Shown here: positions 12,155-28,573 of the stretch, piece by piece | Position numbering within the stretch: the stretch's first letter is position 1 | Layout of the letters: every line of letters starts with the position of its first letter | IMG/VR virus record: IMGVR_UViG_3300022696_000130 | Coordinates: 1 to 37,899 of that record | Strand: one strand, 5' to 3' | Source of the DNA: a virus | DNA length: 37,899 bases | Notes under the pieces: model-generated | Databases searched by the model: none | What the model saw: only the letters and a program-made list of their open reading frames with translations | Told to the model about the DNA's origin: nothing | Program-made: the position numbers and the translations under genes

Positions 12155-12264
12155 TTTGGTACTTTCTACTGTTTGTAGTCTTTGTAGCAATCTGTACACC
12201 AGATAAACACTCAACTGACTACTGGGACGCCTGGAGAGAGAAAAATGATCGTAGAAGTAGGTGA
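12151..12264 (+). CDS. Single-span membrane peptide (37 aa)
   Basis: The ATG at 12151 overlaps the previous stop (ATGA) with AGGAGGTGGACACT upstream. The first 16 residues are hydrophobic (MIWYFLLFVVFVAICT), followed by a charged tail with Trp, Arg and Asp. Its end overlaps the next gene by 20 bases. It is probably an inner-membrane peptide; no family is recognised. Confidence 0.55.
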   Translation: MIWYFLLFVVFVAICTPDKHSTDYWDAWREKNDRRSR

Positions 12265-12487
12265 TGTAATCGTCATAACAGCAGGCTTTGAAACAAACTC
12301 CAAGCTTCACGTTAACAAACGGGCCAAAGTCCACCATGTATTCAGCGATGGCGACTTTTCAATCTACGACATAGAAAAAGACACTCCTATCGGTATTGTC
12401 TGGCTTTCCAAAAAAGACAAAATAAAGATCGTTGAGAGAGCAAACCCTCGTAACGGCCTCCCGGACACAAAGGAGGAGTGGTTTTGA
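12245..12487 (+). CDS. SH3-like beta-barrel protein with WF tail, paralogue 2
   Basis: An 80-residue protein preceded by GGAGAGAAAA. MIVEVGDVIVITAGFE is a barrel-type start, followed by alternating strands (GDFSIYDI, IGIVWLSKKDKI). The C terminus LPDTKEEWF is one of eight Trp-Phe endings on this strand. The last codons overlap the start of the zinc-finger gene at 12484, so translation is coupled. Function unknown; a binding or adaptor role is inferred from the small barrel and tag. Confidence 0.65.
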   Translation: MIVEVGDVIVITAGFETNSKLHVNKRAKVHHVFSDGDFSIYDIEKDTPIGIVWLSKKDKIKIVERANPRNGLPDTKEEWF

Positions 12488-12816
12488 ATTATTTGACACC
12501 ATCGGACAAAGACGCCTTCTTGGATTGGCCTGCTAAACACGCCTTCGACCCAAAAACCCACAAAGAATGCCATATCTGCAAAGGACATGGCGGCTGGAAC
12601 CTCAAAATAAGCGCCTACAAGCTCCATGGAGAGGACACAGCGATAAATAGACACCTGTACTCGCATTTCAAAGGAACGTGCTCCCACTGCAATGGATGGG
12701 GCTCTATCCCCCATGAAGAAATGTGTGTTGAACATGTCTGGGAAAGAGAAGAAAGCCTTGGTAACTGCCTCCACAAGCACAAATGCAAAAAATTGTGGGA
12801 AAGAATGGACTGTTGA
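12484..12816 (+). CDS. DnaJ-type zinc-finger protein
   Basis: From TTG at 12484, which overlaps the previous stop (TTGA) and lies seven bases after GGAGGA, this encodes 110 residues. Two CxxCxGxG-type repeats, CHICKGHGGW and CSHCNGWGSI, separated by about 35 residues, match the zinc-binding modules of DnaJ chaperones; each Cys pair would contribute to a zinc site. Further Cys/His residues occur near the end (CLHKHKCKK). There is no J domain. Stand-alone DnaJ-like fingers are common in phages with unknown roles. Confidence 0.6.
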   Translation: MNYLTPSDKDAFLDWPAKHAFDPKTHKECHICKGHGGWNLKISAYKLHGEDTAINRHLYSHFKGTCSHCNGWGSIPHEEMCVEHVWEREESLGNCLHKHKCKKLWERMDC

Positions 12817-12838
12817 CTCTAGCGGTTGAGGAGAAACA

Positions 12839-12985
12839 ATGAAGCTAAAAGACACAAAACGGGCTGAGGCCCAAGAACGGCAGAAGATTTATGACCAGCT
12901 CAGCAAGGTACAAAAGCTGGACATCATCGCTAACCGCAGGGGAGAAAGCAAAAAGGAGAAAGAGCGTATCCTCAAGGGAGAATAG
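12839..12985 (+). CDS. Small charged helical protein (48 aa), unknown
   Basis: The ATG at 12839 follows GAGGAGAAACA. The product is a single highly charged helix (KRAEAQERQKIYDQLSKVQK) ending in a Lys/Glu-rich stretch. No family is recognised. It is three bases upstream of the next gene's ATG and clearly in the same unit. Confidence 0.6.
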   Translation: MKLKDTKRAEAQERQKIYDQLSKVQKLDIIANRRGESKKEKERILKGE

Positions 12986-12987
12986 CC

Positions 12988-13146
12988 ATGAAGAAACACC
13001 TCGACATCGGGCCGGAAGGGATGAAATGCCCTTGCTGCTTCCCTAAACCAGGCAGTAAAGACAGAAAAACCCTTTTCAAGCAGGCGAAGGTCAAGGAAAA
13101 GCGTGAGGCCTTCAGGATCGAAGAACTCAACATGGATTGTGACTGA
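12988..13146 (+). CDS. Small cysteine-containing protein (52 aa), unknown
   Basis: The ATG at 12988 comes just after the previous stop; AAGGGAGAATAGCC provides the SD. The product has a KCPCCFPKPGS knuckle near residues 13-23 and a basic helical second half. One CPCC cluster is not enough for a full zinc site unless it dimerises. No family is recognised. Confidence 0.55.
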   Translation: MKKHLDIGPEGMKCPCCFPKPGSKDRKTLFKQAKVKEKREAFRIEELNMDCD

Positions 13147-13149
13147 TTG

Positions 13150-13182
13150 AAGGCGATGCAGGATTACTCCTGCGTTGCCCTT
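13150..13182 (+). terminator. Intergenic hairpin
   Basis: Thirteen base pairs (three G-U) with one bulged C form between AAGGCGATGCAGG and CCTGCGTTGCCCTT, with a six-base loop. No U-tract follows, so attenuation or transcript protection is as likely as termination. Confidence 0.45.
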
Positions 13183-13205
13183 CAGCCAACCACAAAGGAG
13201 GTACT

Positions 13206-13598
13206 ATGGAAATCAGTAAAGCAGGCGGAGAGAAAAAGGGTGTCTGGATTTCACAGGACGGAAGAGAGACCCCCTACAAGGAAATGGCGACTGTCCACAT
13301 CATTAACGCCTTAAAGAAGATGGCAAGGCAGGCTGAAGCGGTTGAAAATCAACTCAAGCAGATTCTTACCACGGAGCTTAACCAAATCGCAGACCAAAGC
13401 ATTGTCGAGCCCGTCGTATCGTGGATAAAAAACCACGATCTGGTCGCAGACGGCCATGACGCATGGCTGAGCCGCAACAACCCGCATTACTCTGAGCTGA
13501 AGAAAGTCCTGAAAGCAAAGCAGGACGAAGAAAAGAAAGCCCAGGAGAAGAAAGAGTCTTCAAAGACTCTCAGCGACTCTGACGCGGTATGGTTTTAG
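13206..13598 (+). CDS. Helical protein with WF tail (130 aa), unknown
   Basis: The ATG at 13206 has AAAGGAGGTACT upstream. The N-terminal 30 residues look beta-rich (KGVWISQDGRETPYKEMAT), the middle is helical, and the last 30 are a Lys/Glu coil ending TLSDSDAVWF. It does not resemble the small barrels, yet carries the same Trp-Phe ending. The Trp-Phe codons overlap the ATG of the next gene (GTATGGTTTTAG). Function unknown. Confidence 0.65.
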   Translation: MEISKAGGEKKGVWISQDGRETPYKEMATVHIINALKKMARQAEAVENQLKQILTTELNQIADQSIVEPVVSWIKNHDLVADGHDAWLSRNNPHYSELKKVLKAKQDEEKKAQEKKESSKTLSDSDAVWF

Positions 13599-14065
13599 AT
13601 AAAGAAATCGTTGACTTCCTCACCAAAAAAGCATGGAACACTGGAAGGAGAATAGGAAAAAGGCTGGAGCTAAACCAAGCAAACAGACAAAAAGCCATTG
13701 ATATAATTCTTGAAGAGTCCTCCTTCCTGGCAATGGACATCATAGAAAACCCAATAGAGTTTCTGGAAGCCTCTTCTCGGTCAGATTCCCACCTTATCTA
13801 CACAAGACACAATGAATTCCGCTGGGCTCCAAAACACCTCTTCAGCAAAATCCCAGGACGCTTTCAATATGAGCTTAAAAAACACTCTGGAAGCGCCTGC
13901 ATAGACTATCTCAACGCCCATCTCGGAAGCACGGCCTTATTAGCCTTTGATGCGTGGAATGAGCAGTACCACTTCTTTTGCCTTTATGAATGGAGAGATG
14001 ATGAAGAAATTACCGTTCGTCCTCGCCCTGGACTCAGCCCTGGAAAAGGGAGCTGGTTTTACTAA
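13589..14065 (+). CDS. Unknown protein (158 aa), ends GSWFY
   Basis: The start ATG at 13589 lies within the last codons of the previous gene, a coupled overlap of ten bases; no strong SD is seen. The protein has a helical first half and an aromatic, possibly beta second half (LLAFDAWNEQYHFFCLYEWR). It ends GLSPGKGSWFY, one residue beyond a Trp-Phe, so it may be a variant of the tail motif. No family is recognised. Confidence 0.6.
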   Translation: MVLDKEIVDFLTKKAWNTGRRIGKRLELNQANRQKAIDIILEESSFLAMDIIENPIEFLEASSRSDSHLIYTRHNEFRWAPKHLFSKIPGRFQYELKKHSGSACIDYLNAHLGSTALLAFDAWNEQYHFFCLYEWRDDEEITVRPRPGLSPGKGSWFY

Positions 14066-14195
14066 CGGCATCGTTACTTTACGCTGGAATAAGACTTTTC
14101 TTGACCAGCATGGCAATAAGCACGTTGTCACAAAAAAAGAACTCTTAACCGATTTGTGGGAGGTAGTCGATGTGGGAAGCAACAGACCTTCTTAG
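14001..14195 (+). CDS. Small protein (64 aa), unknown
   Basis: The second of two adjacent ATGs (14001) is favoured because GGAG lies five bases before it. The frame overlaps the previous gene by 65 bases and the next by 26. The product begins MKKLPFVLALDSALEKGAG and continues with a beta-like middle (NGIVTLRWNKTFL). The N terminus is mildly hydrophobic but too weak for a clear signal peptide. The long overlaps lower confidence. Confidence 0.45.
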   Translation: MKKLPFVLALDSALEKGAGFTNGIVTLRWNKTFLDQHGNKHVVTKKELLTDLWEVVDVGSNRPS

Positions 14196-14394
14196 CAGGG
14201 TCAAAAAAAGACTCGAAGAAATAGAAACACTGGGCGCAAAGATCGCTTTCGACGAAGATGCGAGCCACGAAACGAGAGAGGCAGGACTGGAGATCAGGAA
14301 TGCCTCTTTATCGTTGCGCAAGGACATTGACAGTGAAGTCGATAACTACTTCGAAGAAATGGCCAAAGCAATGGACCCCAACTATGGCAATTAA
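14170..14394 (+). CDS. Small helical protein (74 aa), unknown
   Basis: The ATG at 14170 follows GGGAGGTAGTCG. The product is helical and acidic (DLLSRVKKRLEEIETLGAKI; DSEVDNYFEEMAKAM), likely a coiled coil or helical hairpin. No family is recognised. It overlaps both neighbours by a few bases. Confidence 0.6.
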   Translation: MWEATDLLSRVKKRLEEIETLGAKIAFDEDASHETREAGLEIRNASLSLRKDIDSEVDNYFEEMAKAMDPNYGN

Positions 14395-14632
14395 AGAAGG
14401 TGATTGGGTTCTTATCAAGGACACATCCACAGCAAACTCTGTCTGCCCAAGCTGGATAGGAACAACAAAACAAATCTACAAAATATACCCATCAGAGGAT
14501 TTTGTTTACGCCATTAAAGGAGAGAAGGGCCAAGATGATTGTTGGTGGCTTACAAACCTTGATGTCGAGCCAACAGACCCACCAAAAATCCCAAAACTTT
14601 CCCTCCCTAGCTCTAAAGACGAATGGTTTTGA
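14384..14632 (+). CDS. SH3-like beta-barrel protein with WF tail, paralogue 3
   Basis: From the ATG at 14384 the product has 82 residues. MAIKEGDWVLIKDTS is the barrel-type opening. CPSWIGTTKQIYKIY and DCWWLTNLDVEP align by eye with CPTWAGYKRQIKLI and GYWWFKEHELSP of the next gene, so the two are tandem paralogues. It ends LPSSKDEWF. The SD is weak; coupling to the upstream gene is likely. Function unknown. Confidence 0.65.
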   Translation: MAIKEGDWVLIKDTSTANSVCPSWIGTTKQIYKIYPSEDFVYAIKGEKGQDDCWWLTNLDVEPTDPPKIPKLSLPSSKDEWF

Positions 14633-14871
14633 AGTTCAGAGAAAGCGATTGGGTTTTTATCAATGAAGACAGCATAACAGCAAAAGAGCACTGCCCTACT
14701 TGGGCTGGGTATAAGCGACAAATAAAGCTCATAAGAGAAGATTACGATTTTCCCTATGGGTTCGAAGGGGGGCAAGGACGCGACGGATATTGGTGGTTCA
14801 AGGAACACGAACTAAGCCCAATAAGCAAAATATCTGAAAACCTTCCAGACTCAGACGAGTCCTGGTTTTAG
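14623..14871 (+). CDS. SH3-like beta-barrel protein with WF tail, paralogue 4
   Basis: Starts at ATG 14623, within the Trp codon of its tandem paralogue, or at TTG 14629, which overlaps that gene's stop. About 80 residues. FRESDWVFINEDS, CPTWAGYKRQIKLI and GYWWFKEHELSP mirror the neighbour's sequence. The C terminus is LPDSDESWF. The paralogues share fold and tail but differ enough to have separated some time ago. Confidence 0.65.
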   Translation: MVLKFRESDWVFINEDSITAKEHCPTWAGYKRQIKLIREDYDFPYGFEGGQGRDGYWWFKEHELSPISKISENLPDSDESWF

Positions 14872-14879
14872 GAGGAGCA

Positions 14880-15536
14880 ATGAATCTGAATAAACAAATT
14901 CGTAAAGAAATTCTCACCAGCTTTGTTTCTGCGCTTGTGAAGCCAAAGATTGAAGAGATCGCCAAAGAAAAAGCAGCCTTAGCAGACAAAGCATTTGAGC
15001 AGGTTTTAGCCTTCTGGAACATAAAATCACTTGAAGAATTCAAGAAAAACGTCCCAAAAAGCTTTTATTCCATGAGTGCCAGCTTTCGTATCATTGCGAC
15101 AATCGAAAAAGAAGACAAAACAACAACAAGGTGCATAACGCTTGAAAGTGATTTTAACCCAAACATCGTTTTTTACCCCTATGGGACCACCAAAGAAGAT
15201 TCTGAAGGCACAAAAAAATTCCCGGTCCCTATAGGCTATTCTTCGAACCCACTTACTAAACTTACAACCCATAGAAGCAAAGAAATTGTCGAAGAACACG
15301 AAAAAATCAATAAAAAGATCATCGCCCTTCAAGGCCACATTGTAGAGATAGAAGAACAAACAAGGTCTTTGCTTGGAAAGTGCAAAACAGACACACAGCT
15401 CTACAAGCATTGGCCAGAAGGCGAAACCTACTACGCCCCCATCCTAAAAAAATACAACACCGGAAGCGCTATCGGCGCAACAGCCGAAACACTGCAAAAA
15501 GCTATCGATAAACTTCTGATGGAGGGAAAGGAATGA
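14880..15536 (+). CDS. Unknown protein (218 aa), faintly Nmad5-like
   Basis: The ATG at 14880 follows AGGAGGAGCA. The first 60 residues are helical (LNKQIRKEILTSFVSALVKP), followed by a beta segment (MSASFRIIATIEKEDKTTTR) and a long helical C-terminal half. The N-terminal pattern reminds me of the Nmad5 proteins, a family predicted to be linked to DNA base modification in phages, but the match is only impressionistic. No catalytic motif is visible. The stop overlaps the next ATG. Confidence 0.55.
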   Translation: MNLNKQIRKEILTSFVSALVKPKIEEIAKEKAALADKAFEQVLAFWNIKSLEEFKKNVPKSFYSMSASFRIIATIEKEDKTTTRCITLESDFNPNIVFYPYGTTKEDSEGTKKFPVPIGYSSNPLTKLTTHRSKEIVEEHEKINKKIIALQGHIVEIEEQTRSLLGKCKTDTQLYKHWPEGETYYAPILKKYNTGSAIGATAETLQKAIDKLLMEGKE

Positions 15537-15769
15537 CATATTACTGTGGTGATTGCGGGAAAGAATGCAGTTTGCTCTTCGATGGTTTTGAAACACCGCG
15601 TTTATGTGAGCCAGACATGCCGATCTCAAGCCTTTGCTGTGATGCACAAGTCTATTCTGATAAAGAACTTAAAAAACTGGCAGACGCAGCTGATTACTGC
15701 TCAGACTACTGGGCGCTGTTGGGTGACAGACAATATGACGAGTGGAGAGAGATGAATGGGCAAGGTTAA
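15533..15769 (+). CDS. Cysteine-rich small protein (78 aa), probable zinc binder
   Basis: ATG at 15533 overlaps the previous stop (ATGA), with GGAGGGAAAGGA upstream. YYCGDCGKEC at the N terminus and SSLCCDAQVYS about 25 residues later form a likely zinc ribbon; the rest is an acidic helix with many Tyr and Asp residues. No family is recognised. Confidence 0.6.
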   Translation: MTYYCGDCGKECSLLFDGFETPRLCEPDMPISSLCCDAQVYSDKELKKLADAADYCSDYWALLGDRQYDEWREMNGQG

Positions 15770-15956
15770 GGAAGCAGCAATTGACCTCAGGAACGCCTCA
15801 GGGCTCCTCAGAGCGACGAACGCAGAGCAATCTATACGAAGGATCCTTCACTACTACTTTGGAGGCTCCAGCGACCTCATAGACGATATTCGCGTTGAGA
15901 AAGCAGCCGCAGAAATCATTGACACTATCGAAGCCAAAATGATGGGCCACTTATGA
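15756..15956 (+). CDS. Small helical protein (66 aa), unknown
   Basis: The ATG at 15756 overlaps the previous gene by 14 bases, with GGAGAGAG before it. The product is an all-helical, alternating basic and acidic protein (AAIDLRNASGLLRATNAEQS). No family is recognised. Its last bases overlap the next ATG. Confidence 0.6.
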   Translation: MGKVKEAAIDLRNASGLLRATNAEQSIRRILHYYFGGSSDLIDDIRVEKAAAEIIDTIEAKMMGHL

Positions 15957-16111
15957 ACCTTAAAGACATCTGTGGAGAACTTTATTTCATCGTCGGCATG
16001 GTTGGTGTGATTGAAAGCAGCACCGACGAGTTTGCCCAGAGCATTGCGGCTAAGGTCATTAAAAAGCTTGAAAAAGCAGCCTCTGAACTGGAAAAGCACC
16101 TGGAAGACTGA
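15953..16111 (+). CDS. Small helical protein (52 aa), unknown
   Basis: The ATG at 15953 overlaps the previous stop (ATGA). The product starts MNLKDICGELYFIVGMVGVI and ends in a Lys/Glu-rich helix (KKLEKAASELEKHLED). The N-terminal hydrophobic stretch is short, so a membrane role is uncertain. No family is recognised. Confidence 0.55.
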   Translation: MNLKDICGELYFIVGMVGVIESSTDEFAQSIAAKVIKKLEKAASELEKHLED

Positions 16112-16126
16112 CTTGGTAGTTTTAAT

Positions 16127-16150
16127 TTGCAGCCTCTTCGGAGGTTGCAA
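16127..16150 (+). terminator. UUCG-capped intergenic hairpin
   Basis: Ten base pairs (one G-U) capped by TTCG: TTGCAGCCTC against GAGGTTGCAA. It is very stable but has no U-tract. It separates the small-gene run from the gene at 16230. Confidence 0.5.
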
Positions 16151-16229
16151 GCTAAAGCCCCCAAGAGAAAGGAGGACAACAGGGCTGGCAACGCATAAGC
16201 GTTAAACCTAATCTAACCAAGGAGTAAAG

Positions 16230-16781
16230 ATGTTCAACAAAAAACTGCGCAAAGACATGGAAGAGCTTAAAGACATCGCCCCCACCAACAGCGAAAAGAT
16301 GGCACAAATGCTATCGATGATGGAAACTCTGTTCACCCCGAAAGAGCTGGCGAAGATCAAAGAAAAAGACCTCCCGGAACTCAGCCACGAGTCAAGCCTC
16401 TTCTACCGCGAATACGAAAAAGCTAAAGAGGAATACCAAAACTACCTCCCAAAGAACCCCCCGGAACACTTCAGAGACACAATACAACCACGCTACCTGG
16501 AACAAATTGCAGAGCTTCGCATCCTCAATCGCCGTCTTTCCGAAAGTTACAGTGGCCGCAACGCCAGGGAAAACTACAGTTTGGATTTGGTCAAAGAAGC
16601 TGCTGGAACAAAAGTCGAGTACACAATGGTCTCTTCCGCGCAAAAGTTCTATGGCAGCTCCCTGTTTCTTCTTGAACGCGGCAAAATTCTGCGCCCCCTT
16701 TTCTCCACAAACAAGATGGACATGATCCTTGGTGTGCTCCACAGTCTTGCAAAGAAACGCAGTGTCTCAACAGAGATGTAG
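16230..16781 (+). CDS. Helical protein (183 aa), unknown
   Basis: The ATG at 16230 follows AAGGAGTAAAG. The first 100 residues are charged and helical with a Pro-rich turn (YLPKNPPEHF). The last 60 contain KVEYTMVSSAQKFYGSSLFL and a basic end. Codon use is more C/G-ending than its neighbours, like the genes at 11230 and 17688. No family is recognised. Confidence 0.65.
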   Translation: MFNKKLRKDMEELKDIAPTNSEKMAQMLSMMETLFTPKELAKIKEKDLPELSHESSLFYREYEKAKEEYQNYLPKNPPEHFRDTIQPRYLEQIAELRILNRRLSESYSGRNARENYSLDLVKEAAGTKVEYTMVSSAQKFYGSSLFLLERGKILRPLFSTNKMDMILGVLHSLAKKRSVSTEM

Positions 16782-16911
16782 GGTCATTCAATGCGAGCGG
16801 TGTTGCTCTGAGGAGTTCCGCTTGGTAGAAAAGCAGGATTACATCGCCATTGAATGCAGGAATTGTCTCTTTGAGCAAAGCCGTATCGAAACCCAAGACT
16901 CCCCGGAGTGA
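16762..16911 (+). CDS. Putative zinc-ribbon miniprotein (49 aa)
   Basis: A GTG at 16762 opens a frame overlapping the previous gene by 20 bases. The product carries CRVIQCERCCSEEF and, 18 residues on, IECRNCLFEQ, a two-knuckle C-x2-C arrangement fitting a zinc ribbon. Earlier TTG/GTG starts exist but extend into the previous gene. There is no clear SD, so it may be translated by coupling. Function unknown. Confidence 0.45.
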   Translation: MSQQRCRVIQCERCCSEEFRLVEKQDYIAIECRNCLFEQSRIETQDSPE

Positions 16912-17206
16912 GAAATATAAGGAATGGGTCAGGCAGATGCCGTGTCTGGTCTGCCTGATGTCCCATCCTTCCCTGATCCACAGAACTGTGAACCGTTCCG
17001 ACCCTCACCATGTCCCTGAAAAGGGGAAAGGAGGCAAAGGCATGGTTGCTTCTGACTACAGGGTTATTCCTCTTTGCCGGGTTCATCATCGTGAAGCGCA
17101 TTTGGGAAGAGAGACTTTTGCCGAGAAGCATAGTTTTGATTATGAGATGGTCATAAGCAGGCTCAATACTCTCTATAAGGAAACGCATGGCATCGATAAC
17201 CTTTGA
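16871..17206 (+). CDS. HNH nuclease-like recombination protein
   Basis: TTG at 16871, nine bases after AGGA, is the favoured start (111 residues); TTG at 16850 is an alternative. The pattern MPCLVC (C25, C28), DPHHVP (H46, H47), then GKGGKG and VIPLCRVHHREAHLG (C69, H72, H73, H77) matches the zinc-supported HNH fold of the Ref/DUF968-like phage nucleases, which act in homologous recombination. It is not related to the homing-type HNH at 6961. Its place next to ssDNA-binding-like and replication genes supports a recombination role, which remains inferred. Confidence 0.65.
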   Translation: MSKAVSKPKTPRSEKYKEWVRQMPCLVCLMSHPSLIHRTVNRSDPHHVPEKGKGGKGMVASDYRVIPLCRVHHREAHLGRETFAEKHSFDYEMVISRLNTLYKETHGIDNL

Positions 17207-19728: not shown

Positions 19729-20664
19729 ATGGGAGAAAAGAATTTCAGCATCGCAGAGACTTTCAACCTGCCGGACATCCCGGCCAACATCACCGTCAAA
19801 GGATGCGACGAACCAAACGAGTTTGTGCCTAAAATCGACCCGGATTATGTCTTCCGCAAAGATTTGCTTTCGGACATCCTTGCATGGCACATGATGGACA
19901 GCGAAAACGAAGGCTTCTGGTTGGCAGGGCCGACAGGTTCCGGGAAAACGTCGCTTCGGCAGCAGGTTGCAGCACGAATTAACAAGCCTGTAATCACCGT
20001 CAATGCTCATAGCCGTCTGGAGTCGCCTGATCTGATCGGTCACTACGCCCTAGTCAATGGCTCGATGCAATACGTTGACGGGCCTTTAACAACTGCGATG
20101 CAGAACGGCTGGTGGTTTGCCATCGATGAGATTGATTATCTTGACCCGGCAACAGCAGCAGGCTTAAACGCCGTTGCGGAAGGATACCCGCTGGTTATCC
20201 CTGAGAAGAATGGCGAAGTTGTCCACCGGGCGAAGGGTTTCGGCTTTCTGGTCTCTGGCAACACCACAGGAAGCGGAGACGAGACCGGGATGTACCAGGG
20301 AACTCTGCGTCAAAATATGGCCTTTGTTGATCGTTTCTGGATGAGCATCGTTGACTACCCGGAAGAGGCTCACGAGCTGGACATCATGAAGAAAGCTGTT
20401 CCTGAGATTCCTGAAGACATCCACAAGACAATGATCGCTTACGCCGATAAAGTCAGGAAGCAATTTGTCGCTGGCCAGATTGAAATCACCATGAGTACCA
20501 GGACGTTGGTGAAGTGGGCAAAAATGGCTAACTTCTTCCGCCCGTTGAAAGCCAAGGGAATCAACCCGATTCACCACGCTCTTGATCGTGCCTTGGCATT
20601 CAAGGCAACCCTTGAAACCGCAAATGCCTTAAGAGAGATTGCACAGCGGGAGTTTGGAGACTGA
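19729..20664 (+). CDS. MoxR/CobS-like AAA+ ATPase
   Basis: A 311-residue AAA+ ATPase, with GGAGCAAGAATA upstream of the ATG. Walker A is GPTGSGKT (67-74); ESPDLIG follows at about 98-104 as in MoxR/CobS proteins; Walker B is AIDEID (D133/E134); sensor 1 Asn is in VSGNTTG (N178); the C terminus is a helical lid. MoxR-type ATPases work with VWA-domain partners as chaperones or metal-insertion machines; CobS/CobT is the cobaltochelatase example, and phages carry similar pairs. Its partner is the CobT-like gene at 21572. The substrate in this phage is unknown. Confidence 0.85.
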   Translation: MGEKNFSIAETFNLPDIPANITVKGCDEPNEFVPKIDPDYVFRKDLLSDILAWHMMDSENEGFWLAGPTGSGKTSLRQQVAARINKPVITVNAHSRLESPDLIGHYALVNGSMQYVDGPLTTAMQNGWWFAIDEIDYLDPATAAGLNAVAEGYPLVIPEKNGEVVHRAKGFGFLVSGNTTGSGDETGMYQGTLRQNMAFVDRFWMSIVDYPEEAHELDIMKKAVPEIPEDIHKTMIAYADKVRKQFVAGQIEITMSTRTLVKWAKMANFFRPLKAKGINPIHHALDRALAFKATLETANALREIAQREFGD

Positions 20665-20666
20665 AT

Positions 20667-21527
20667 ATGAACCCAGACATTGTTTGCATTAACCTCGTCA
20701 TGAGAATTTGGTCAGCACAAAAAAGACTGACAGCAGCAGACATCGGACTGCCCCCGGACCAGGACATTCCACACGAGCTGGGGAGCCTTGGTGTTAAGCG
20801 CGTCTATGACCCGGAGAAGCTGAAAGATTTCTTAAGCCTCCGCAGGAAAGCAGAGCGACTGTGCCAGAACTATGGAGTGAAGTTCCTTGGCGGTTACGCC
20901 GTTGGGAAAGATAAAGCTCCAGTCGTCGTAGAGAAGCTCGAAGAGATCAAGAAAGAATTCGAGGAACAAAAGAATGCGTTCCTTGAAGACTATGAGAAGG
21001 CATGTGAACTCTGGTTCAACAAAGTCCCAGACAAATGGAAGCAGGCGATCAAAAACGCAATAGAACCAAAAGAAAAGGTAGAAAGGGCTATCTCCTTTAA
21101 TTACCAGGCTTACAACGTCCAGGGCATTGACGGCATCTCAGCAACGCTGGAAGAGGCCTTTGATGGGCTTCCAAGAGAGATTGCACGGAACATCAGGGAA
21201 ATCGCTACCGATGTCTACGAGAAGTCCTTCTCCGGCAAGGAAAAGGTCTCTCAGAAGGCGCTACGGCCCCTTAAGGCGCTCAGTGAAAAGCTGGACAGCC
21301 TCAGCTTCCTCGACAGTGAGATTGCAGCCAAAGCCACAGAACTGAACGCAACCTTGACGCAGAGCCTCCCGAAGAAAGGATACCTGGAAGGCAGAGACAA
21401 GTTTACTGTCATCGGTCTTTTAAGCGGGTTGATGAAGTTTGGTACGAAAGAAGGAGAAGAAGAGCAGGCTCTCGACGAGGAAGACGCTGAACGCATTGAA
21501 AAAGCGCCCCCATCAGCCTGGTTTTAA
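20667..21527 (+). CDS. Middle protein of the ATPase/VWA operon, WF tail
   Basis: A 286-residue, largely helical, charged protein placed one codon after the ATPase gene, with GGAGACTGAAT before the ATG. No enzyme motif is visible. Residues about 95-125 and 210-245 look like coiled coils. The C terminus, ERIEKAPPSAWF, is the longest protein in the window to carry the Trp-Phe ending. It may bridge the ATPase and the VWA protein, or be the substrate adaptor; this is inferred from gene order alone. Confidence 0.7.
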   Translation: MNPDIVCINLVMRIWSAQKRLTAADIGLPPDQDIPHELGSLGVKRVYDPEKLKDFLSLRRKAERLCQNYGVKFLGGYAVGKDKAPVVVEKLEEIKKEFEEQKNAFLEDYEKACELWFNKVPDKWKQAIKNAIEPKEKVERAISFNYQAYNVQGIDGISATLEEAFDGLPREIARNIREIATDVYEKSFSGKEKVSQKALRPLKALSEKLDSLSFLDSEIAAKATELNATLTQSLPKKGYLEGRDKFTVIGLLSGLMKFGTKEGEEEQALDEEDAERIEKAPPSAWF

Positions 21528-21571: not shown

Positions 21572-23146
21572 ATGTCGAACCTGTTTATACGCTCACTCCC
21601 AGTCGTCGCATCGGCTATGGGAAATAAAATGGGCGTTGAAGTCATCATTGGTGACATGGGTGCATGTACTGACGGGAAAAGAATCTATCTGCCTGAACTA
21701 CCTGAAGGCGACGACCTGTTCACGCTTGCACGGGGCTATATCGACCACGAATCAGCACACATTGAAGACACCAACTTTAGTGTCTGGCCGAAAGATAAAG
21801 GCCCTGAGCAGACAATGACCAACATCATTGAAGACATCCGCATTGAAAAGAAAAGAAGTGACCGATACCCAGGTTGCTCCGTCAACCTGAAGAAGCTTGT
21901 GCAGTTACTTGCAGACAAAGGAGACTTCAGCCCGGATCAAAACGATCCTGGTGAAGTGTTCTCAGCATGGATTTTGTCGCGTGGTCGCTTTGACTACTTG
22001 AAGCAGGATGGCGTTGAGAAAATCGCTGACGAAACAGAAAAGCTGCTCCGCGATATGATTGGTGATGATGTCATGGACGACGCTCGCAAACTTATGGGCG
22101 AAATCCCAAGCCTAAAAAGCACGGAAAACTCTAAAGAGCTTGCCAACAAAATTCTCGACCTTCTCGGAAAACAGAAAAATAAACCAAAGAAACAAGACCA
22201 GAACCAACAGGGACAGGGAGGGCAAGGAGGCGGAGAAAAGAAAGACGGATCGCCCCAAAAAGGCGGTGGATCGCAGGAAAAGAAAGACGCTATTGATAAA
22301 ATCCTGAACAACAAAAAGGATTTCGGCAATATCAGCCAGATTCTCCAGGAGGAATTAAACGATAAAGCAACCTCAGATCCGGATAAGTCTTCAGGCTCTT
22401 ACCCAGGAGAAGAATTTGCTTCACACAACAGAAGGACAAACTTCGACACCAGCAAAGTCAGAGAAAAAACGGTTGGGCTTCGGACAAAACTTTCACGCAT
22501 GGTCGCAGCACAACGTCTCAAAAGAACGCACGAAAGACAGACGGGGAGGAAGGTGAATTACAGAGTCCTGCACAGAATCGCCGCCAATAACCCACGCGTT
22601 TTCTGCGCCAAGGAACTTCGCACCGACGACAATACAGCAGTCGCCATATTGCTTGATCGCTCTGGATCAATGGCGGGAAGGGAAATTAAAATTGCACGGG
22701 AAGCAACCTATGCTATCGCTGACGCTCTTGATCTTATCCCAGGCGTTGCTGTAACAACTGCTGCGTTCCCAAGCACCAGAAATAGAATCCTTGTCATAAC
22801 CCCATTCGGGAAAAGCGTGAAGAGAACGCAGGATGCCTATGGCATTGAAGCAACGGGTGGAACGCCAATGCTCGAAGCCATCAACTGGGCCAGAACGAAA
22901 ATGATGCAGCGCACCGAGCCGCGTAAGATTTGCCTGGTTATCACAGATGGAGGCCCCTCAGACCCTCAGCGTGTCAAAAAGACAATCAAGAAGATGGAGA
23001 GAGAAGGCATTGAAATGATGGGGATTTGGATTCAATCCAGAGTTGATTCTCTCTTTGAAACAAGCATCATGATCAACAACGTATCTGAGCTGACAAAAAA
23101 TCTCTTCAAGCTGTTTGAAAAGAAGCTGGTAAAGAAAACGGTATAA
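21572..23146 (+). CDS. CobT-like protein with HExxH and VWA domains
   Basis: A 524-residue protein, with AGGAGAAATT upstream. Residues 57-64 read IDHESAHI, a His-Glu-x-x-His site as in phage CobT-like proteins, followed by NIIEDIRIEKK (84-94). Residues 200-240 are a Gly/Gln/Lys linker. A C-terminal VWA domain has the metal-site motif LLDRSGSM (360-367), a GGTP loop near 428 and LVITDGG near 455. Together with the MoxR/CobS-like ATPase it should form a two-part machine in which the VWA domain binds a client and the ATPase remodels it. Whether it handles a metal cofactor is not known. Confidence 0.82.
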   Translation: MSNLFIRSLPVVASAMGNKMGVEVIIGDMGACTDGKRIYLPELPEGDDLFTLARGYIDHESAHIEDTNFSVWPKDKGPEQTMTNIIEDIRIEKKRSDRYPGCSVNLKKLVQLLADKGDFSPDQNDPGEVFSAWILSRGRFDYLKQDGVEKIADETEKLLRDMIGDDVMDDARKLMGEIPSLKSTENSKELANKILDLLGKQKNKPKKQDQNQQGQGGQGGGEKKDGSPQKGGGSQEKKDAIDKILNNKKDFGNISQILQEELNDKATSDPDKSSGSYPGEEFASHNRRTNFDTSKVREKTVGLRTKLSRMVAAQRLKRTHERQTGRKVNYRVLHRIAANNPRVFCAKELRTDDNTAVAILLDRSGSMAGREIKIAREATYAIADALDLIPGVAVTTAAFPSTRNRILVITPFGKSVKRTQDAYGIEATGGTPMLEAINWARTKMMQRTEPRKICLVITDGGPSDPQRVKKTIKKMEREGIEMMGIWIQSRVDSLFETSIMINNVSELTKNLFKLFEKKLVKKTV

Positions 23147-23152
23147 TCAGCA

Positions 23153-23177
23153 AGGCCCCTCTTCGGAGGGGCTTTTC
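23153..23177 (+). terminator. UUCG-capped terminator
   Basis: AAGGCCCCTC...GAGGGGCTT form a nine-pair stem (with one unpaired G) capped by TTCG, then TTTT. It ends the ATPase/VWA operon. Confidence 0.8.
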
Positions 23178-23199
23178 TGCATAAAAGGAGGATACAGAC

Positions 23200-23445: not shown

Positions 23446-23447
23446 AA

Positions 23448-23765: not shown

Positions 23766-24025
23766 TGGATATCAGCACTTACGACTTCAAAGGCGCTTAC
23801 CATTGTTACGAATGCAGAATGAAAGAACTTGAAGATGGTACTGGGGATTTTGTTAGGGCAGAGGACTATGACAAACTCCGCGCAGAGGTTGAGAGACTGC
23901 GGGATACATCATTAAAGGCTCTAGGAGAAATGAAATTATATTTTGATCAGTACCCTCACATGAAAAAAGGATACATCGTTGACGTAATTGAAGAATTACA
24001 AAAGGCGTTAGAAGGAGAAGAGTGA
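23765..24025 (+). CDS. Small coiled-coil protein (86 aa), unknown
   Basis: The ATG at 23765 overlaps the previous stop (TGATG). The product has CYECRMKELEDG near the N terminus and a coil (EDYDKLRAEVERLRDTSLKA). AGGAAGAG provides the SD. No family is recognised. Starts with MDISTYDF; the downstream gene starts MDIYEPAL, probably chance. Confidence 0.6.
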   Translation: MDISTYDFKGAYHCYECRMKELEDGTGDFVRAEDYDKLRAEVERLRDTSLKALGEMKLYFDQYPHMKKGYIVDVIEELQKALEGEE

Positions 24026-24438
24026 TGGATATTTATGAACCAGCTCTTTTTGGAAGCCCTGAATGTTTAGGGTGCAAGCAACCCCGCGCAGAACTCAAAG
24101 CAGCCAAGGCTGAAGCAGATACGCTTTGTATAGCAATACACCAACGTCACTACAAAACGACGGCCCCTGAATTTGATCTATGCGATTCCGTTCCGGGAGT
24201 CATTTCACAAATTGACAATATGGTTGCTGGTTTATTTTCCGAACTTGACCGCTACAAGAAAGTGGTTGATGAGGCTTGTGGTTTGTTGAAAATAGCAAGC
24301 TGCCCAAATCGCAACTGCACAGGTGGAGTATTGCAGGTTGGCATTAACGGCGACGATATAGAGCAATGCCAATGGTGTTATTTTCGAGATGAATTACTCC
24401 GCGAACTGGAGGCCAACAATGTTTCTCGTCAACCCTGA
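24025..24438 (+). CDS. Cysteine-containing coiled-coil protein (137 aa), unknown
   Basis: The ATG at 24025 overlaps the previous stop (TGATG) with AGGAGAAG upstream. The product has ECLGCKQPRAELKAAKAEAD at the start and SCPNRNCTGG and EQCQWCYF near the end; these C-x2-C pairs could form a zinc ribbon with GVLQVGINGD between them. Function unknown. Confidence 0.6.
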   Translation: MDIYEPALFGSPECLGCKQPRAELKAAKAEADTLCIAIHQRHYKTTAPEFDLCDSVPGVISQIDNMVAGLFSELDRYKKVVDEACGLLKIASCPNRNCTGGVLQVGINGDDIEQCQWCYFRDELLRELEANNVSRQP

Positions 24439-24874
24439 GAAACTCAAAGAAGAACTTATCCCCCTGACAATGGAGGAAAGGGGAGAGTTTATCACCCGCA
24501 AGGTTGCACAGATGCTCTCTGGGGAGTTTAAGGAAGACTGGGCATACCCTGACAAGGGGAAGACCAAAAAAATCGCTGACAGCCCTTATACAGAAGCCTT
24601 TGAGCTTTTCTGGAAGAGCTACCACCCTGATAGAAGGACAGGGAAGGGAGCAGCATTTAAATCGTGGAAGAAAGTTGCCAAAAACAGAGCCCAGGAAATA
24701 GCGCTTCTCGATCTTTGCACCAAGGCCCTGGCGTGGCAAAAAACATCACGACAATGGTGCGAAGGATTCGTCCCCTTACCTGCGACCTACCTCAACCAAA
24801 GGCGCTGGGAAGACGAAGCTCCAGAACAAAAGGAAGGCTACTGTGACATCAACGGAAACTGGCAGGAAAGATAA
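24419..24874 (+). CDS. Phage replication-organiser-like protein
   Basis: The ATG at 24419 has CTGGAGGCCAACA upstream; product 151 residues. YTEAFELFWKSYHPDRRTGK followed by GAAFKSWKK (57-85), and FVPLPATYLNQRRWEDE (about 119-135) are hallmarks of the C-terminal domain found in phage replication initiators and helicase-loading proteins (Phe-x-x-Phe-Trp...Lys-Gly-x-Ala...Pro-x-Thr-Tyr-Leu-x-x-x-Arg-Trp). The N-terminal DNA-binding part is reduced. It lies two genes upstream of the primase finger and one upstream of the helicase, fitting a role in loading the helicase. Confidence 0.65.
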   Translation: MFLVNPEKLKEELIPLTMEERGEFITRKVAQMLSGEFKEDWAYPDKGKTKKIADSPYTEAFELFWKSYHPDRRTGKGAAFKSWKKVAKNRAQEIALLDLCTKALAWQKTSRQWCEGFVPLPATYLNQRRWEDEAPEQKEGYCDINGNWQER

Positions 24875-24971
24875 CCAGAATACTCTTCTAATTCAATAAT
24901 CCTTGCATCTTATAGCCTCAGTCTGCATGATTGAGGCTATTGATTTTATTCCCCCACAAATGAGGTTGATT

Positions 24972-25826
24972 ATGCTGGTCAGGCCGCAAGATTTAGAGCA
25001 GCAATTCTATGCTATGCGCAAAGTTGAACCCTCCAAAAAAGGCCTTTCAACAGGCTTTCAAGTTCTCGACCCCTACATGCTTTTGGCCAAGGGCTACATG
25101 ATGATCGCAACAGGGTATCCTGGCTGTGGTAAATCAGAATTTATTGACGCAATCCTCGTCAACATGGCTGTTTCCTATGGCTGGAAAACGCTTTACTTCT
25201 CACCGGAAAACCACCCCATCGAAGAGCACATGAGCAAGCTGGCGGAAAAGTTCTATGGCAAGAGAATGCGAAAGCTCACACAGGAAGAATCAGCAGCCTC
25301 TTTAGAATTTCTGACAAGCCATTTCTCATGGATAGACCTCGAAGAGCCAAACCTTGAAGCCATCATCAACCTTACCAAAGCAGACCACAAAGAAAGAGCA
25401 ATCGATTGTATCGTCATTGACCCCTGGAACGCAGTTACACATAGTCGCGGATCGACAATGATCCATGAATACCTTTCAAACGCCCTCTCTAAAATCATCC
25501 GCCTTGCCAGAACACTCAAAATATTCGTCGTCATCGTCGCTCACCCCGCAAAACCAGTAAAAGACAAAGAAGGGAAGATCGGAATTCCCACTCTCTACGA
25601 CATCTCGGATGGCGCAATGTGGAGAAATAAGGCTGACTACGGAATCGTCTTTCACCGCCCGGACATGATGAAAAACCAGATACTCATCTCGGTTCAGAAA
25701 ATCAAACAGAAATGGATGGGGCATTTGGGGAACATTACGATGGATTACCATTGGGAATCAGGTCGTTTCAAAAGCATTGAAGACAAAGAGTTTTTATTGC
25801 CGACTGAAATCCCTTTACCCTTTTAG
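24972..25826 (+). CDS. DnaB/Twinkle-like replicative helicase domain
   Basis: From the ATG at 24972 (GAGG six bases upstream) the protein has 284 residues; longer starts exist without an SD. It is a RecA-like ATPase: STGFQVLDPYMLLAKGYMMI, Walker A GYPGCGKS (48-55), YFSPEN, Walker B CIVIDPWN (D150), FVVIVAHP (sensor), RNKADYGIVFHR. This matches the C-terminal helicase domain of DnaB/gp4/Twinkle proteins without the N-terminal primase half. It ends EIPLPF. Expected to be the ring helicase at the phage fork, working with the adjacent zinc finger protein. Confidence 0.8.
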   Translation: MLVRPQDLEQQFYAMRKVEPSKKGLSTGFQVLDPYMLLAKGYMMIATGYPGCGKSEFIDAILVNMAVSYGWKTLYFSPENHPIEEHMSKLAEKFYGKRMRKLTQEESAASLEFLTSHFSWIDLEEPNLEAIINLTKADHKERAIDCIVIDPWNAVTHSRGSTMIHEYLSNALSKIIRLARTLKIFVVIVAHPAKPVKDKEGKIGIPTLYDISDGAMWRNKADYGIVFHRPDMMKNQILISVQKIKQKWMGHLGNITMDYHWESGRFKSIEDKEFLLPTEIPLPF

Positions 25827-25835
25827 GAGTGAGAG

Positions 25836-26288
25836 ATGCCTGACTACGGGAAGATTTTAAGAGATGCAGAGCGCAGAGGAGAAAGCAGAGTCAGAGCAGG
25901 CTTTGATCGCATCCGCCAACTGAAAGCATTGATAAAAACCTGTGAAGATATGGGGGGAGACATTGCAGATTTCTGGAAGAAAGAAGCCCAGGAGGAGATG
26001 AATTTCCTAAAGAGCAACATTATCAAGGCAAAAATCCCATCCAAGATCACAGAAGACGACATAGAGCAGGCTCGGAACTACCCAGTAGATAAACTCATCG
26101 ACTTTAAAAATGGCGCAGCAACAGCATGGTGTCACGAAGACAAAAACCCATCCCTCGCCCGCCTCACCCGAATCAACAAAGTAAAATGCTACCCCTGTGA
26201 TAAGACCTTCGACAGTATCGACATCGCCATGCACCAATATGGGTGCGACTTTATAACCGCAGTCAAAACATTGACGGGAGGACATTGA
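25836..26288 (+). CDS. Stand-alone CHC2-type primase zinc finger
   Basis: A 150-residue protein (TAGGAGTGAG upstream). The first 90 residues are helical. WCHEDKNPSLARL (98-110) then VKCYPCDKTFDSIDIAMHQY (116-135) and FITAVKTL follow the DnaG N-terminal zinc domain that reads template sequence. Likely ligands are C99/H100 with C118 and C121; the usual Cys three before the His is replaced by Ala, with Cys next to the His instead. No TOPRIM catalytic domain is attached or seen nearby, so it may assist another primase. Confidence 0.68.
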   Translation: MPDYGKILRDAERRGESRVRAGFDRIRQLKALIKTCEDMGGDIADFWKKEAQEEMNFLKSNIIKAKIPSKITEDDIEQARNYPVDKLIDFKNGAATAWCHEDKNPSLARLTRINKVKCYPCDKTFDSIDIAMHQYGCDFITAVKTLTGGH

Positions 26289-26624
26289 ATGAAGATAGAA
26301 ATCAAATGCCTGGACGGTAACTGCTGGATCAACATGCCTATCGAAAAACTCAAGGGGTCGTCAATTCTGGAGTATATGGCCGATGAGATGACACCGACTG
26401 TCGCCGCAATCTACGACGGGGAAAAGCCTGTTTTCTTTCTGTCCAACACAGACAAGCACTCACAGATGATGCGGGGGAAAGGTCATGTCTGCTTTTCAAC
26501 GTCCGAATTCCAGGCCATCATGTCAGCAGAAACCCAGACGTTCTCCAAGATGGTGGTACACACCTTCCCAGGCTCAAGCGTTGTCGATATTCGAAGAGCG
26601 GAAGTACAGGAGAGTTTTGCATGA
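26289..26624 (+). CDS. Unknown protein (111 aa)
   Basis: The ATG at 26289 follows the previous stop directly; GGGAGGACATTGA gives the SD. The product is alpha/beta: MKIEIKCLDGNCWINMPIEK, ATG-proximal strands, then VAAIYDGEKPVFFLSNTDK. No family is recognised. It overlaps the next gene by four bases and probably belongs to the replication operon. Confidence 0.6.
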   Translation: MKIEIKCLDGNCWINMPIEKLKGSSILEYMADEMTPTVAAIYDGEKPVFFLSNTDKHSQMMRGKGHVCFSTSEFQAIMSAETQTFSKMVVHTFPGSSVVDIRRAEVQESFA

Positions 26625-26863
26625 AGAATGACGACCTTCCAACTCTGGCAGAGGATGCGGAAATTGGTCGGGTCGAAGTCTATAAGGTGAGAACTCACTA
26701 CGCTACAATCCGCTGCCCGGACATCACGTTCAACAAAAAAGTCCCCATGAGGGACACCATGAGTCGTGAGCAATGTCTTCTCCGGGTCTATACTCAAGCG
26801 GCCTGTGCAAAAAAATGCAAAATCGGAAGAAATTTACTTGAAGAATGGAAGAAGCAGAGGTAA
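26621..26863 (+). CDS. Small basic protein (80 aa), unknown
   Basis: ATGA overlap with the previous gene; CAGGAGAGTTTTGC upstream. The product begins acidic and ends basic (CAKKCKIGRNLLEEWKKQR). Three Cys residues near the end are not in a clear zinc pattern. Last gene of the replication operon. Confidence 0.6.
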   Translation: MKNDDLPTLAEDAEIGRVEVYKVRTHYATIRCPDITFNKKVPMRDTMSREQCLLRVYTQAACAKKCKIGRNLLEEWKKQR

Positions 26864-26923
26864 ACTTCTTTCACGCTTAAAACTGGTACGGGGGCGTGGC
26901 CAGAAAATTAAATAGCCAAAGCA

Positions 26924-26941
26924 AACAAGATGCTGGCACAA
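26924..26941 (+). repeat. 18-base element, copy 2
   Basis: AACAAGATGCTGGCACAA; one mismatch to 19423-19440. It lies 61 bases after the end of the replication operon and 43 bases before a terminator. Confidence 0.55.
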
Positions 26942-26983
26942 TAAACCTATGGAGAGTGGACCACCCCCTCCCCACTCCCCTAG

Positions 26984-27025
26984 AAAGCCCTTTGGATGTC
27001 TTGTTCGTCCAAAGGGCTTTCGCTT
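26984..27025 (+). terminator. Strong rho-independent terminator
   Basis: AAAGCCCTTTGGA (26984-26996) and TCCAAAGGGCTTT (27008-27020) pair over 13 bases with an 11-base loop, followed by CGCTTTTT. It ends the replication operon. Confidence 0.85.
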
Positions 27026-27044
27026 TTTAAAAAAGGGAATAAAC

Positions 27045-27260
27045 ATGACAAAGAAAATCTCTTTCCTTCAAGACCCTCCAGGAAGACGCCACACACGAGC
27101 TTTAACCAAATTGACAAACCTCTGTTTAAGAAACTTCGAAAAACCATCTAAAGAAAACTTTTCCATCCTGAGAACTTTTGTCGAAAAATTTCTCGTCCCA
27201 ATGGCTGAAGACCCAACCAACGAAGAAAAAATCAAAGCCGTCGTGGATAAAAGCAAGTAA
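27045..27260 (+). CDS. Small basic helical protein (71 aa), unknown
   Basis: The ATG at 27045 follows AAAAGGGAATAAAC. The product is basic and helical (RHTRALTKLTNLCLRNFEKP). No family is recognised. First gene after the terminator at 26984, so it may have its own promoter nearby, though none is evident. Confidence 0.6.
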   Translation: MTKKISFLQDPPGRRHTRALTKLTNLCLRNFEKPSKENFSILRTFVEKFLVPMAEDPTNEEKIKAVVDKSK

Positions 27261-27275
27261 AAGGAGCTGGTTCTG

Positions 27276-27623
27276 ATGAAAGAATTCTCTTTTGGAGATG
27301 TTGTCAGAATTGATGAAAGCCCTTCAGGTTGGTTCTATTGGGTTTGTGGAGTTATGACGTATTCAGAAACAGCCACAAAGAAGATTTATCTTCTTTGCAA
27401 CGACGCAACCTATGGCGCTCCTTATACTCATGAAAGGCTTAAGCTGGCTACACAAAGCGATGACTATAGCCAAAAAAAGGCGACATTATACAGGAACAAA
27501 TATATCAAGGAGTGTGAATCATGGGCGCACAAAACCCTCTTATCTCTGAAAATCTGTGTTCCACCACACTACAAAATAAGAAATCCCATTGTCCTCGACG
27601 AGGGGGAAGGAGCCTGGTTCTGA
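27276..27623 (+). CDS. SH3-like beta-barrel protein with WF tail, paralogue 5
   Basis: A 115-residue protein; AAAAGGAGCTGGTTCTG lies upstream. The opening KEFSFGDVVRIDESPSGW fits the small-barrel family, followed by WVCGVMTYSETATKKIYLL and THERLKLA. The C terminus is VLDEGEGAWF, here with codons TGG TTC, showing that the tail is kept at protein level rather than as a fixed DNA word. Function unknown. Confidence 0.65.
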   Translation: MKEFSFGDVVRIDESPSGWFYWVCGVMTYSETATKKIYLLCNDATYGAPYTHERLKLATQSDDYSQKKATLYRNKYIKECESWAHKTLLSLKICVPPHYKIRNPIVLDEGEGAWF

Positions 27624-27932
27624 CATAAATAAAACCCAGTGGCCCCTCGCCACCCCTATCGGGGGCCTATCGCCTGCGCCAGAGCAGGGTAAAGGATAAA
27701 CAGGCAATTGTGGTAACGCCGGTGCAGTTGGGACGACTCCCGGAAACTCGAAAGAGATTGATGGCGTTCCAGGCCAAGAGGATGGGAGAGACTTTATGAT
27801 CCCACCAAGTGTCGCTCACTTAAAACGCACCTGATAATTCACTGGGGATAAAGCTGGCTGCTGACAAGCATTAGGGTTTTTCCGAAGAGACCACATCGGA
27901 TGGGGGGTAGTACGCCCAGAAATGGAGGACAG
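27624..27932 (+). other. Structured non-coding region
   Basis: 309 bases without a convincing gene. Several short hairpins are visible: GTGGC/GCCAC near 27640, CCCC/GGGG near 27655, CCTGC/GCAGG near 27675 and TGGGA/TCCCA near 27783-27805. No U-tract follows any of them. A structured leader or small RNA for the downstream barrel genes is possible. Confidence 0.4.
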
Positions 27933-28241
27933 ATGAAAGTAGGAGATAGGGTTAAATTCAAATCAGTCAAAGAGGTGCACGAACTCAGAAAAACACCTGA
28001 AGGTGTTCATGGTGGGTGGCCTGATGAGATGGATGAGCTTGCTGGGCAGACAGGGACTGTTGCTGCTATAGCCGAACACTCTAGCTTTTTAGAAATTAAA
28101 TACGACAATGGGGAAAAATATTCATGGAGCATTTCCGAAGACATGCTTGAAGCCATTGGGCCGGAAATAAAGCCAAAAGCACCAGGAAAGAAAAAAAGCC
28201 TGCTTGATATGATGACAGTCGGGAAGGAGGCGTGGTTTTGA
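27933..28241 (+). CDS. SH3-like beta-barrel protein with WF tail, paralogue 6
   Basis: The ATG at 27933 follows GGAGGACAG; product 102 residues. MKVGDRVKFKSVKEVH, then LAGQTGTVAAIAEHSSFLEI and KYDNGEKYSWSISEDML form a clear KOW/SH3-type small barrel, the best example in the window. A Lys/Pro linker (PEIKPKAPGKKK) leads to MMTVGKEAWF. Similar barrels bind nucleic acids or proteins; which one here is unknown. Confidence 0.7.
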   Translation: MKVGDRVKFKSVKEVHELRKTPEGVHGGWPDEMDELAGQTGTVAAIAEHSSFLEIKYDNGEKYSWSISEDMLEAIGPEIKPKAPGKKKSLLDMMTVGKEAWF

Positions 28242-28573
28242 TGCCCTTTGCCTCAATGCGATCCCCTAATTTCAAAATTACAAAATCAACGAAAAGTACG
28301 CTTGTCCTTGAAGATGTCGGCCCCTGGGATACGCACATGACAATTACAAATGGGGTCGAAGATGTCTTGCATGAACTGTCTTCAACGCTTGATAGAAGGA
28401 GACTTTTTTATTGGGACTCAGATGGTAACTTCACGCAGATCATTTACCAAATGGTCGACGGAAAAGCAAAACTTCTCAGGCTTAATCCTTTGGTTTCACC
28501 ATCGCAAGTTGAGGATATAGACTCTGAAGGACAATCAACAGAGGTTCCTGACAGCGACAAACTCTGGTTTTAG
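28241..28573 (+). CDS. Beta-rich protein with WF tail (110 aa), unknown
   Basis: The ATG at 28241 overlaps the previous stop (TGATG); TTG at 28238, better spaced from GGAGG, is an alternative start. The product is beta-rich (FKITKSTKSTLVLEDVG; LFYWDSDGNFTQIIY) and ends TEVPDSDKLWF. It does not show the Gly-Asp-Val opening of the barrels, so the tail is shared by a different protein type. Confidence 0.62.
   Translation: MPFASMRSPNFKITKSTKSTLVLEDVGPWDTHMTITNGVEDVLHELSSTLDRRRLFYWDSDGNFTQIIYQMVDGKAKLLRLNPLVSPSQVEDIDSEGQSTEVPDSDKLWF

Follow-up and report, generated by a model that had tools for sequence, protein, structure and literature searches.

A shared Trp-Phe ending as a putative docking tag in a phage with a MoxR–DUF3150–VWA module

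Trp-Phe endings and the module in the window

The DNA studied is IMG/VR record IMGVR_UViG_3300022696_000130, a viral stretch of 37,899 bases (hereafter the window), in which eight rightward genes encode proteins that end exactly in Trp-Phe (WF). One of them encodes a DUF3150 protein and sits between the genes for a MoxR AAA+ ATPase and a CobT-like VWA protein (Table 1). An in-frame TGG TTY directly precedes the stop at 12487, 13598, 14632, 14871, 21527, 27623, 28241 and 28573, and the end peptides are those listed in the original prediction, which had been made from the sequence alone. The prediction also held that well under one such ending would be expected among about 60 proteins. Consistent with this, 0.042 WF endings per 60 proteins are expected when W makes up 2.0% and F 3.4% of residues, as in 37 rightward genes, and the probability of eight or more is about 1.5e-16.

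The check proposed with the prediction, a count of C-terminal dipeptides in the window and in related phages, gives eight WF endings against the 0.042 expected, and no WF enrichment was found in 13 related phages covered in full or in large part. As an empirical background, crude gene calling on loci of related phages gave 2210 genes, one of which ends in WF. At the DNA level, the word TGGTTYTRR occurs 14 times in the window against an expectation of 3.8 ± 2.1. No real leftward gene ends in WF, as had been claimed: on that strand, WF-stop words close just two open frames, of only 3 and 6 codons. The relatives share the core replication genes, in which Pro-Phe (PF) or Ile-Phe (IF) endings are often conserved, and they lack the WF proteins of the phage; no comparable enrichment of a shared tail of their own was found. 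In the window, SSB-like ends occur on core replication proteins, namely DDIESPF (11568), EEQMPF (18302), EIPLPF (25826) and EEPTIF (32613), and PF or F is also a frequent ending among the counterparts of these four in related phages.

Body comparison qualifies the claim that the eight proteins are unrelated. Two open reading frames (ORFs) in tandem, at 14258 and 14623, are paralogous (E ~1e-15), and the true start of the first is probably an internal ATG near 14380. The remaining body pairs show no significant match, which leaves seven bodies without detectable relation and a tail that extends beyond homology. Codon variation had been taken as a sign of selection on the peptide. The Phe codons say little in this respect (7 TTT and 1 TTC, against 95:107 across the rightward genes examined), and better evidence comes from the Leu, Pro, Asp and Ser/Thr codons: the LPDSD-type tails differ at most synonymous sites, which argues for selection at the peptide level. 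The two additional cases in the prediction are both weaker. The protein ending GSWFY at 14065 fits no tail pattern found elsewhere and is a doubtful member of the set. The degenerate LPDTKRRWTL at 12154, judged from its sequence, is probably a tail whose end after LPDTKRRW was overwritten by the ribosome-binding site and start of the next gene.

Homology searches gave no useful homologues of the WF proteins in the phage relatives and, for two of them, none in 277 genomes of one class. A DNA pattern for the ending LPDx[DEKN]xxWF returned three hits in IMG/VR, apparently by chance. Known C-terminal signals were also considered for the eight tails and rejected. For the beta-clamp motif QLxLF, Gln is absent from position -4, where the eight tails have K, D, K, D, P, E, K and D. 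For the SSB C-terminal tip, 8/8 end in WF rather than Pro-Phe, and true PF tips are carried by other phage proteins. For the sortase signal LPxTG, the tails read LPDTK or LPDSD, lack the Gly and are not followed by a hydrophobic segment.

The DUF3150 protein matches its family (PF11348) over residues 4-256 with 247 bits against a curated cut-off of 24.9. The AAA_5 and CbbQ_C matches of the ATPase place it in the MoxR clade of AAA+ proteins. In the VWA partner, the residues of the metal ion-dependent adhesion site (MIDAS), D362, S364, S366, T431 and D459, are invariant, and the profile of the protein matches full-length CobT (9uka, E 4e-33). In the N-terminal part of the VWA family, H59, E60 and H63 (HExxH) as well as E87 are invariant; E92 also lies downstream, a zincin-like signature. 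With this residue pattern, the VWA protein might be a peptidase. No ORF in the window exceeds 830 aa, and none of the size of the CobN subunit of a CobNST cobaltochelatase is present there, although the record may not cover the whole genome and CobN could be supplied by the host.

In an AlphaFold2 model built from 27 sequences (alignments for the structure work drew on the window and the genome-scan loci only, without plasmid rows), the DUF3150 protein has a mean predicted local distance difference test (pLDDT) score of 85.8. The body, residues ~1-260, is ordered. The acidic C-terminus falls to 56, 47 and 44 in successive ten-residue blocks from 261 on, with residues 272-286 below 50. A Foldseek comparison of the model with the PDB gave no fold match (best E 0.8).

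The phage is probably podovirus-like: portals of HMO-2011-type phages and of Rhizobium phages match its own. Counterparts of its helicase, its SSB-like protein and its exonuclease are found among the phages of IMG/VR. By eye only, the large terminase ORF (5570-8062, minus strand) looks interrupted by an intein-like insert, across which an ORF with HNH-like sequence (LEHRLVMEVSLG...VDHRDGHPRHNWPENLRLF) runs on the opposite strand (6910-7770, plus strand).

Table 1. Genes of the module and genes with WF or related endings in the window
Feature	Position	Strand	Basis
MoxR-type AAA+ ATPase (AAA_5 + CbbQ_C), no aromatic tail	19729..20664	+	Pfam AAA_5 4.6e-21, CbbQ_C 3.9e-11; PHROG 249 5e-63
DUF3150 protein, 286 aa, tail PPSAWF	20667..21527	+	Pfam DUF3150 2.2e-73
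CobT-like VWA protein, MIDAS and N-terminal HExxH, no tail	21572..23146	+	CobT_C 2e-14, VWA 1.5e-8, CobT 2e-7
Small protein, 80 aa, tail LPDTKEEWF	12245..12487	+	Reading frame and end peptide
Protein, 130 aa, tail LSDSDAVWF	13206..13598	+	Reading frame and end peptide
ORF, tail LPSSKDEWF, paralogue of the 14623 gene	14258..14632	+	Body comparison
Protein, 82 aa, tail LPDSDESWF, paralogue of the 14258 ORF	14623..14871	+	Body comparison
Protein, 115 aa, tail LDEGEGAWF	27276..27623	+	Reading frame and end peptide
SH3-like protein, 113 aa, tail TVGKEAWF	27900..28241	+	SH3_15 7.6e-8
Protein, 113 aa, tail VPDSDKLWF	28232..28573	+	Reading frame and end peptide
Protein, 101 aa, degenerate tail LPDTKRRWTL	11849..12154	+	Reading frame and end peptide; probable overwriting of the end
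Protein, 158 aa, ends GSWFY, doubtful member	13589..14065	+	Reading frame and end peptide

DUF3150 tails and their partners in other elements

The MoxR, DUF3150 and VWA genes also occur in conjugative plasmids and in integrative and conjugative elements (ICEs), and in plasmids their order is the same; DUF3150 matches were found in 1128 plasmid records, most of them predicted to be conjugative. Among phages, three IMG/VR scans (one with a single sequence, two with alignments) returned no second phage with DUF3150, although close relatives of the window may be absent from the collection scanned. At 190 loci of the phage's relatives, neither DUF3150 nor VWA has a homologue, and MoxR gave just two weak hits.

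Our comparison of 87 DUF3150 proteins (those of the window, of plasmid and island loci, and of 80 loci from a genome scan) reveals that the last residue is F in 66, W in 20 and M in 1 (DFCM), so that 86/87 end in F or W. The tail types seen across elements are WF, WFF, WFW, xDF, FYF, YF, WVF and FCL, and they are consistent within each element. An aromatic tail was never found on the MoxR or VWA neighbours at the other DUF3150 loci. The gene between MoxR and DUF3150, here termed the slot gene, encodes a recognisable WGR-domain protein in some elements, and the plasmid DUF3150 protein often ends like the slot-gene product. The pairs in agreement are TWF/NWF, WFW/WFW, EWF/QWF, FYF/YYF, WDF/WDF, AFDF/SWDF, LFF/WFF, WFF/WFF, VWF/VWF, NWF/NWF, GWVF/GWVF and FCL/FCL.

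Over 15 systems, 38/45 positions in the last three residues are identical between the slot protein and DUF3150, whereas 200,000 permutations of shuffled pairings average 17 identities and reach at most 31; these pairs were hand-picked, one per cluster, with systems without a recognisable slot gene left out. Within Desulfuromonadia hosts alone, four tail types occur (WF, WFF, WFW and xDF), with 18/21 identities and 8/5040 permutations as good. A looser rule, in which any ORF may carry the matching tail, gives sharing in 14/20 clusters against 7.1 in shuffles, 3/5000 of which were as good. Such a test of tail sharing is weak, because common endings match by chance.

The tail also extends to recombination proteins. 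In SXT/R391-type ICEs, the lambda-type exonuclease Exo (YqaJ) and DUF3150 both end in SFYF. Similar agreement is seen in P. aeruginosa pF061_2 (Exo EAFCL with EDFCL) and in a P. frederiksbergensis plasmid (Exo IWF with VWF). On the Vibrio plasmid pVPS91, the ending YF is common to Bet, Exo, DUF3150 and the product of the gene that follows MoxR. Furthermore, the Geoalkalibacter plasmid pGSUB1 encodes six WF proteins, four of them outside the operon, and is an independent parallel to the expansion in the phage; these two are the elements found with an expanded set of tailed proteins. On pGSUB1 (L286 3252-8539), three proteins of 204-219 aa have the endings GVWF, FVWF and GAWF; two of the three are neighbours, and all lie well away from the DUF3150 operon.

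Two further kinds of ending were observed. At eight loci of Desulfovibrio-type and some other systems (L206, L208, L218, L232, L267, L269, L270 and L277), DUF3150 ends in GLW and no convincing tailed partner lies within 10 kb. In the Cobavirinae phage L313 (PQ867845.1, 4067-14989), which encodes CobS/CobT without DUF3150, about 17 early proteins of 60-74 aa end in [VIL]PxEF[LFM][SERKT], for example VPGEFLS, IPKEFLE and LPMEFFK. This is possibly a second independent set of shared tails, to which overlapping ATGA starts and paralogy may contribute.

A putative docking tag and its alternatives

We propose that the WF ending is a C-terminal docking (client) tag that would tether several accessory phage proteins to the phage-encoded MoxR–DUF3150–VWA machine. 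Judged from the sequence comparisons, this putative role is probable. The DUF3150 protein would bear the tag on its disordered acidic linker, and the ATPase would remodel the tagged proteins or be the platform on which they assemble. The reader of the tag would be a component that every system encodes, that is, VWA, MoxR or the DUF3150 body, and the favoured candidates for the receptor are a pocket on the MIDAS face of the VWA protein and the pore of the MoxR ring. In the NorQD system, the NorD C-terminus contacts the post-sensor-1 loops of NorQ in the pore (PMC13036017), and the NorD MIDAS has been proposed to bind acidic residues of the target (PMC9976466). By analogy, both precedents would fit an acidic linker with an aromatic end and a free carboxylate.

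The receptor is probably encoded by the element rather than by the host, since four tail types occur within one host class, each consistent within its element. The original prediction had suggested a docking motif for one phage or host hub. A single hub is well supported, if indirectly, by the covariation of the tails, and a conserved host hub is disfavoured. The machine probably serves recombination, repair or other processing of the element's DNA, because Exo, WGR-like proteins and sometimes Bet carry the tail in plasmids and ICEs.

A broader proposal, to which we give even chances, is that each element has its own aromatic C-terminal code word, which would recruit clients to its MoxR–DUF3150–VWA machine and prevent cross-talk between co-resident elements. 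If so, the code words would be WF, WFF, WFW, xDF, FYF, YF, WVF, FCL and GLW, and the gain of two residues would be enough to recruit a new protein. The clients would be DNA recombination proteins in plasmids and ICEs, and small accessory proteins in the phage.

Several observations weigh against the docking tag. The strong covariation statistic depends on the slot gene and on hand-picked pairs, and when sharing is defined as two of the last three residues, non-DUF3150 anchors share tails by chance in 57/181 cases against 12/21 for DUF3150. Tailed DUF3150 proteins without a tailed partner nearby are found in the GLW type of Desulfovibrio and its relatives and in the GFWF, TFWF and VFSF plasmids. 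The small WF proteins of the phage have no detectable homologues in the searches of relatives and of the genomes of one class. In addition, SSU5, V1VFA-S, CRP-810 and ICP2, phages with CobS/CobT and no DUF3150, showed no shared tails in the stretches read.

Among the alternatives, the tail could be received by the body of DUF3150, which would then be a scaffold for its own tail and those of others, or by some further protein of the element. This is unlikely, although DUF3150 is present and tailed in every system and its well-ordered body matches no fold in the PDB. Self-association would be expected of a receptor bearing its own ligand, and the precedents favour the AAA+/VWA pair (PMC9976466, PMC13036017).

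It is more doubtful still that the tail binds a conserved host factor, such as an SSB-tip pocket, a clamp or a protease, in the manner of an SSB tip. Acidic or small residues before an aromatic C-terminus do resemble SSB tips, and the phage has PF-tipped proteins of its own (11568, 18302 and 25826), whose counterparts in relatives often end in PF or F. Such PF tips are nevertheless present in relatives without WF tails, the WF tails show neither a clamp motif nor an ssrA-type ending, and the tail type differs among elements of one host class while agreeing within each element. The likeness to the SSB tip drawn in the original prediction survives in its logic only, the PF and IF tips of the phage being a separate set with counterparts in relatives lacking both the WF tails and the module.

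AAA+ machines often read C-terminal tags, and the HExxH and downstream Glu are invariant in the CobT-like N-terminal part; the tail might accordingly be an unfolding or degradation signal, with the MoxR ring threading the protein and the HExxH domain of VWA cleaving it. We consider this very improbable: DUF3150, Exo and Bet are presumably needed proteins, and to our knowledge the MoxR/VWA pairs studied so far remodel their targets and do not degrade them.

A cause at the DNA level is barely credible. The WF codons could be a side effect of coupled translation, of ribosome-binding sites where genes meet (ATGGTTTTAG, AAGGAGG) or of a mobile 3' module: at 12487, 13598, 14632 and 28241 they overlap with a possible start of the next gene, a Shine–Dalgarno-like AAGGAGG lies within two tails, and a non-coding GGAGCTGGTTCTGATG is found upstream of 27276. 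No next start overlaps the WF codons at 14871, 21527, 27623 and 28573, and translational coupling was rejected as the sole cause. The synonymous differences among the LPDSD-type tails and the recurrence of tails as other peptides (WDF, FYF and FCL) in other elements also speak against this cause. Chance plus paralogy can practically be dismissed: two of the eight WF proteins are paralogous, but the probability is ~1e-15 to 1e-16, shared tails repeat in other DUF3150 elements, and the covariation test argues against it.

Significance and comparison with known systems

DUF3150 with MoxR and VWA is a conserved and unexplained block of SXT/R391-type ICEs and many plasmids. Its link to Exo, Bet and a WGR-like protein through the shared tails offers a simple handle on its function, as the ending may label the targets of the machine. 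A tag uniform within elements and differing between them would be an unusual orthogonal protein-addressing code. It would also put a rule for finding clients in place of a void in annotation, namely to seek proteins that end like the element's own DUF3150. The ORF100-103 cluster of pCAR1, very probably the same MoxR–DUF3150–VWA block, was reported to be conserved in R478, Rts1, SXT and R391; the passages available of that report go no further than noting conserved genes whose products include MoxR and VWA proteins, and do not mention shared tails (PMC2642839). In the passages searched of the SXT Exo/Bet literature, the endings are not discussed. No published description of shared tails, and no paper naming DUF3150, was found in a search that lay outside preprints and most subscription literature.

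The docking tag proposed here resembles the SSB C-terminal tip (DDDIPF) in its disordered acidic linker, its short hydrophobic end and the meeting of many proteins through one tip. The two differ in that SSB is one bearer with many binders, whereas the phage has many tag bearers and a putative receptor, and the phage ending is WF, or another element-specific type elsewhere, not PF. With NorQD, CbbQO, RavA-ViaA and CobST, the module shares adjacent genes for a MoxR AAA+ protein and a MIDAS-bearing VWA protein. The phage VWA protein matches full-length CobT, and the phage ATPase has a CbbQ_C domain. Unlike those systems, the phage has DUF3150 as a third component, putative clients with an element-specific aromatic tail, and no CobN-sized ORF in the window. 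Other AAA+ ATPases have C-terminal recognition motifs, such as the MIM motifs of ESCRT-III for Vps4 and the ssrA tag for ClpX. In both these cases and, putatively, in the phage, one C-terminal signal on several proteins is addressed to one AAA+ machine; no sequence relation is known, and the tag type described here varies among elements. C-terminal docking peptides are thus already known, and the element-specific code is the new part.

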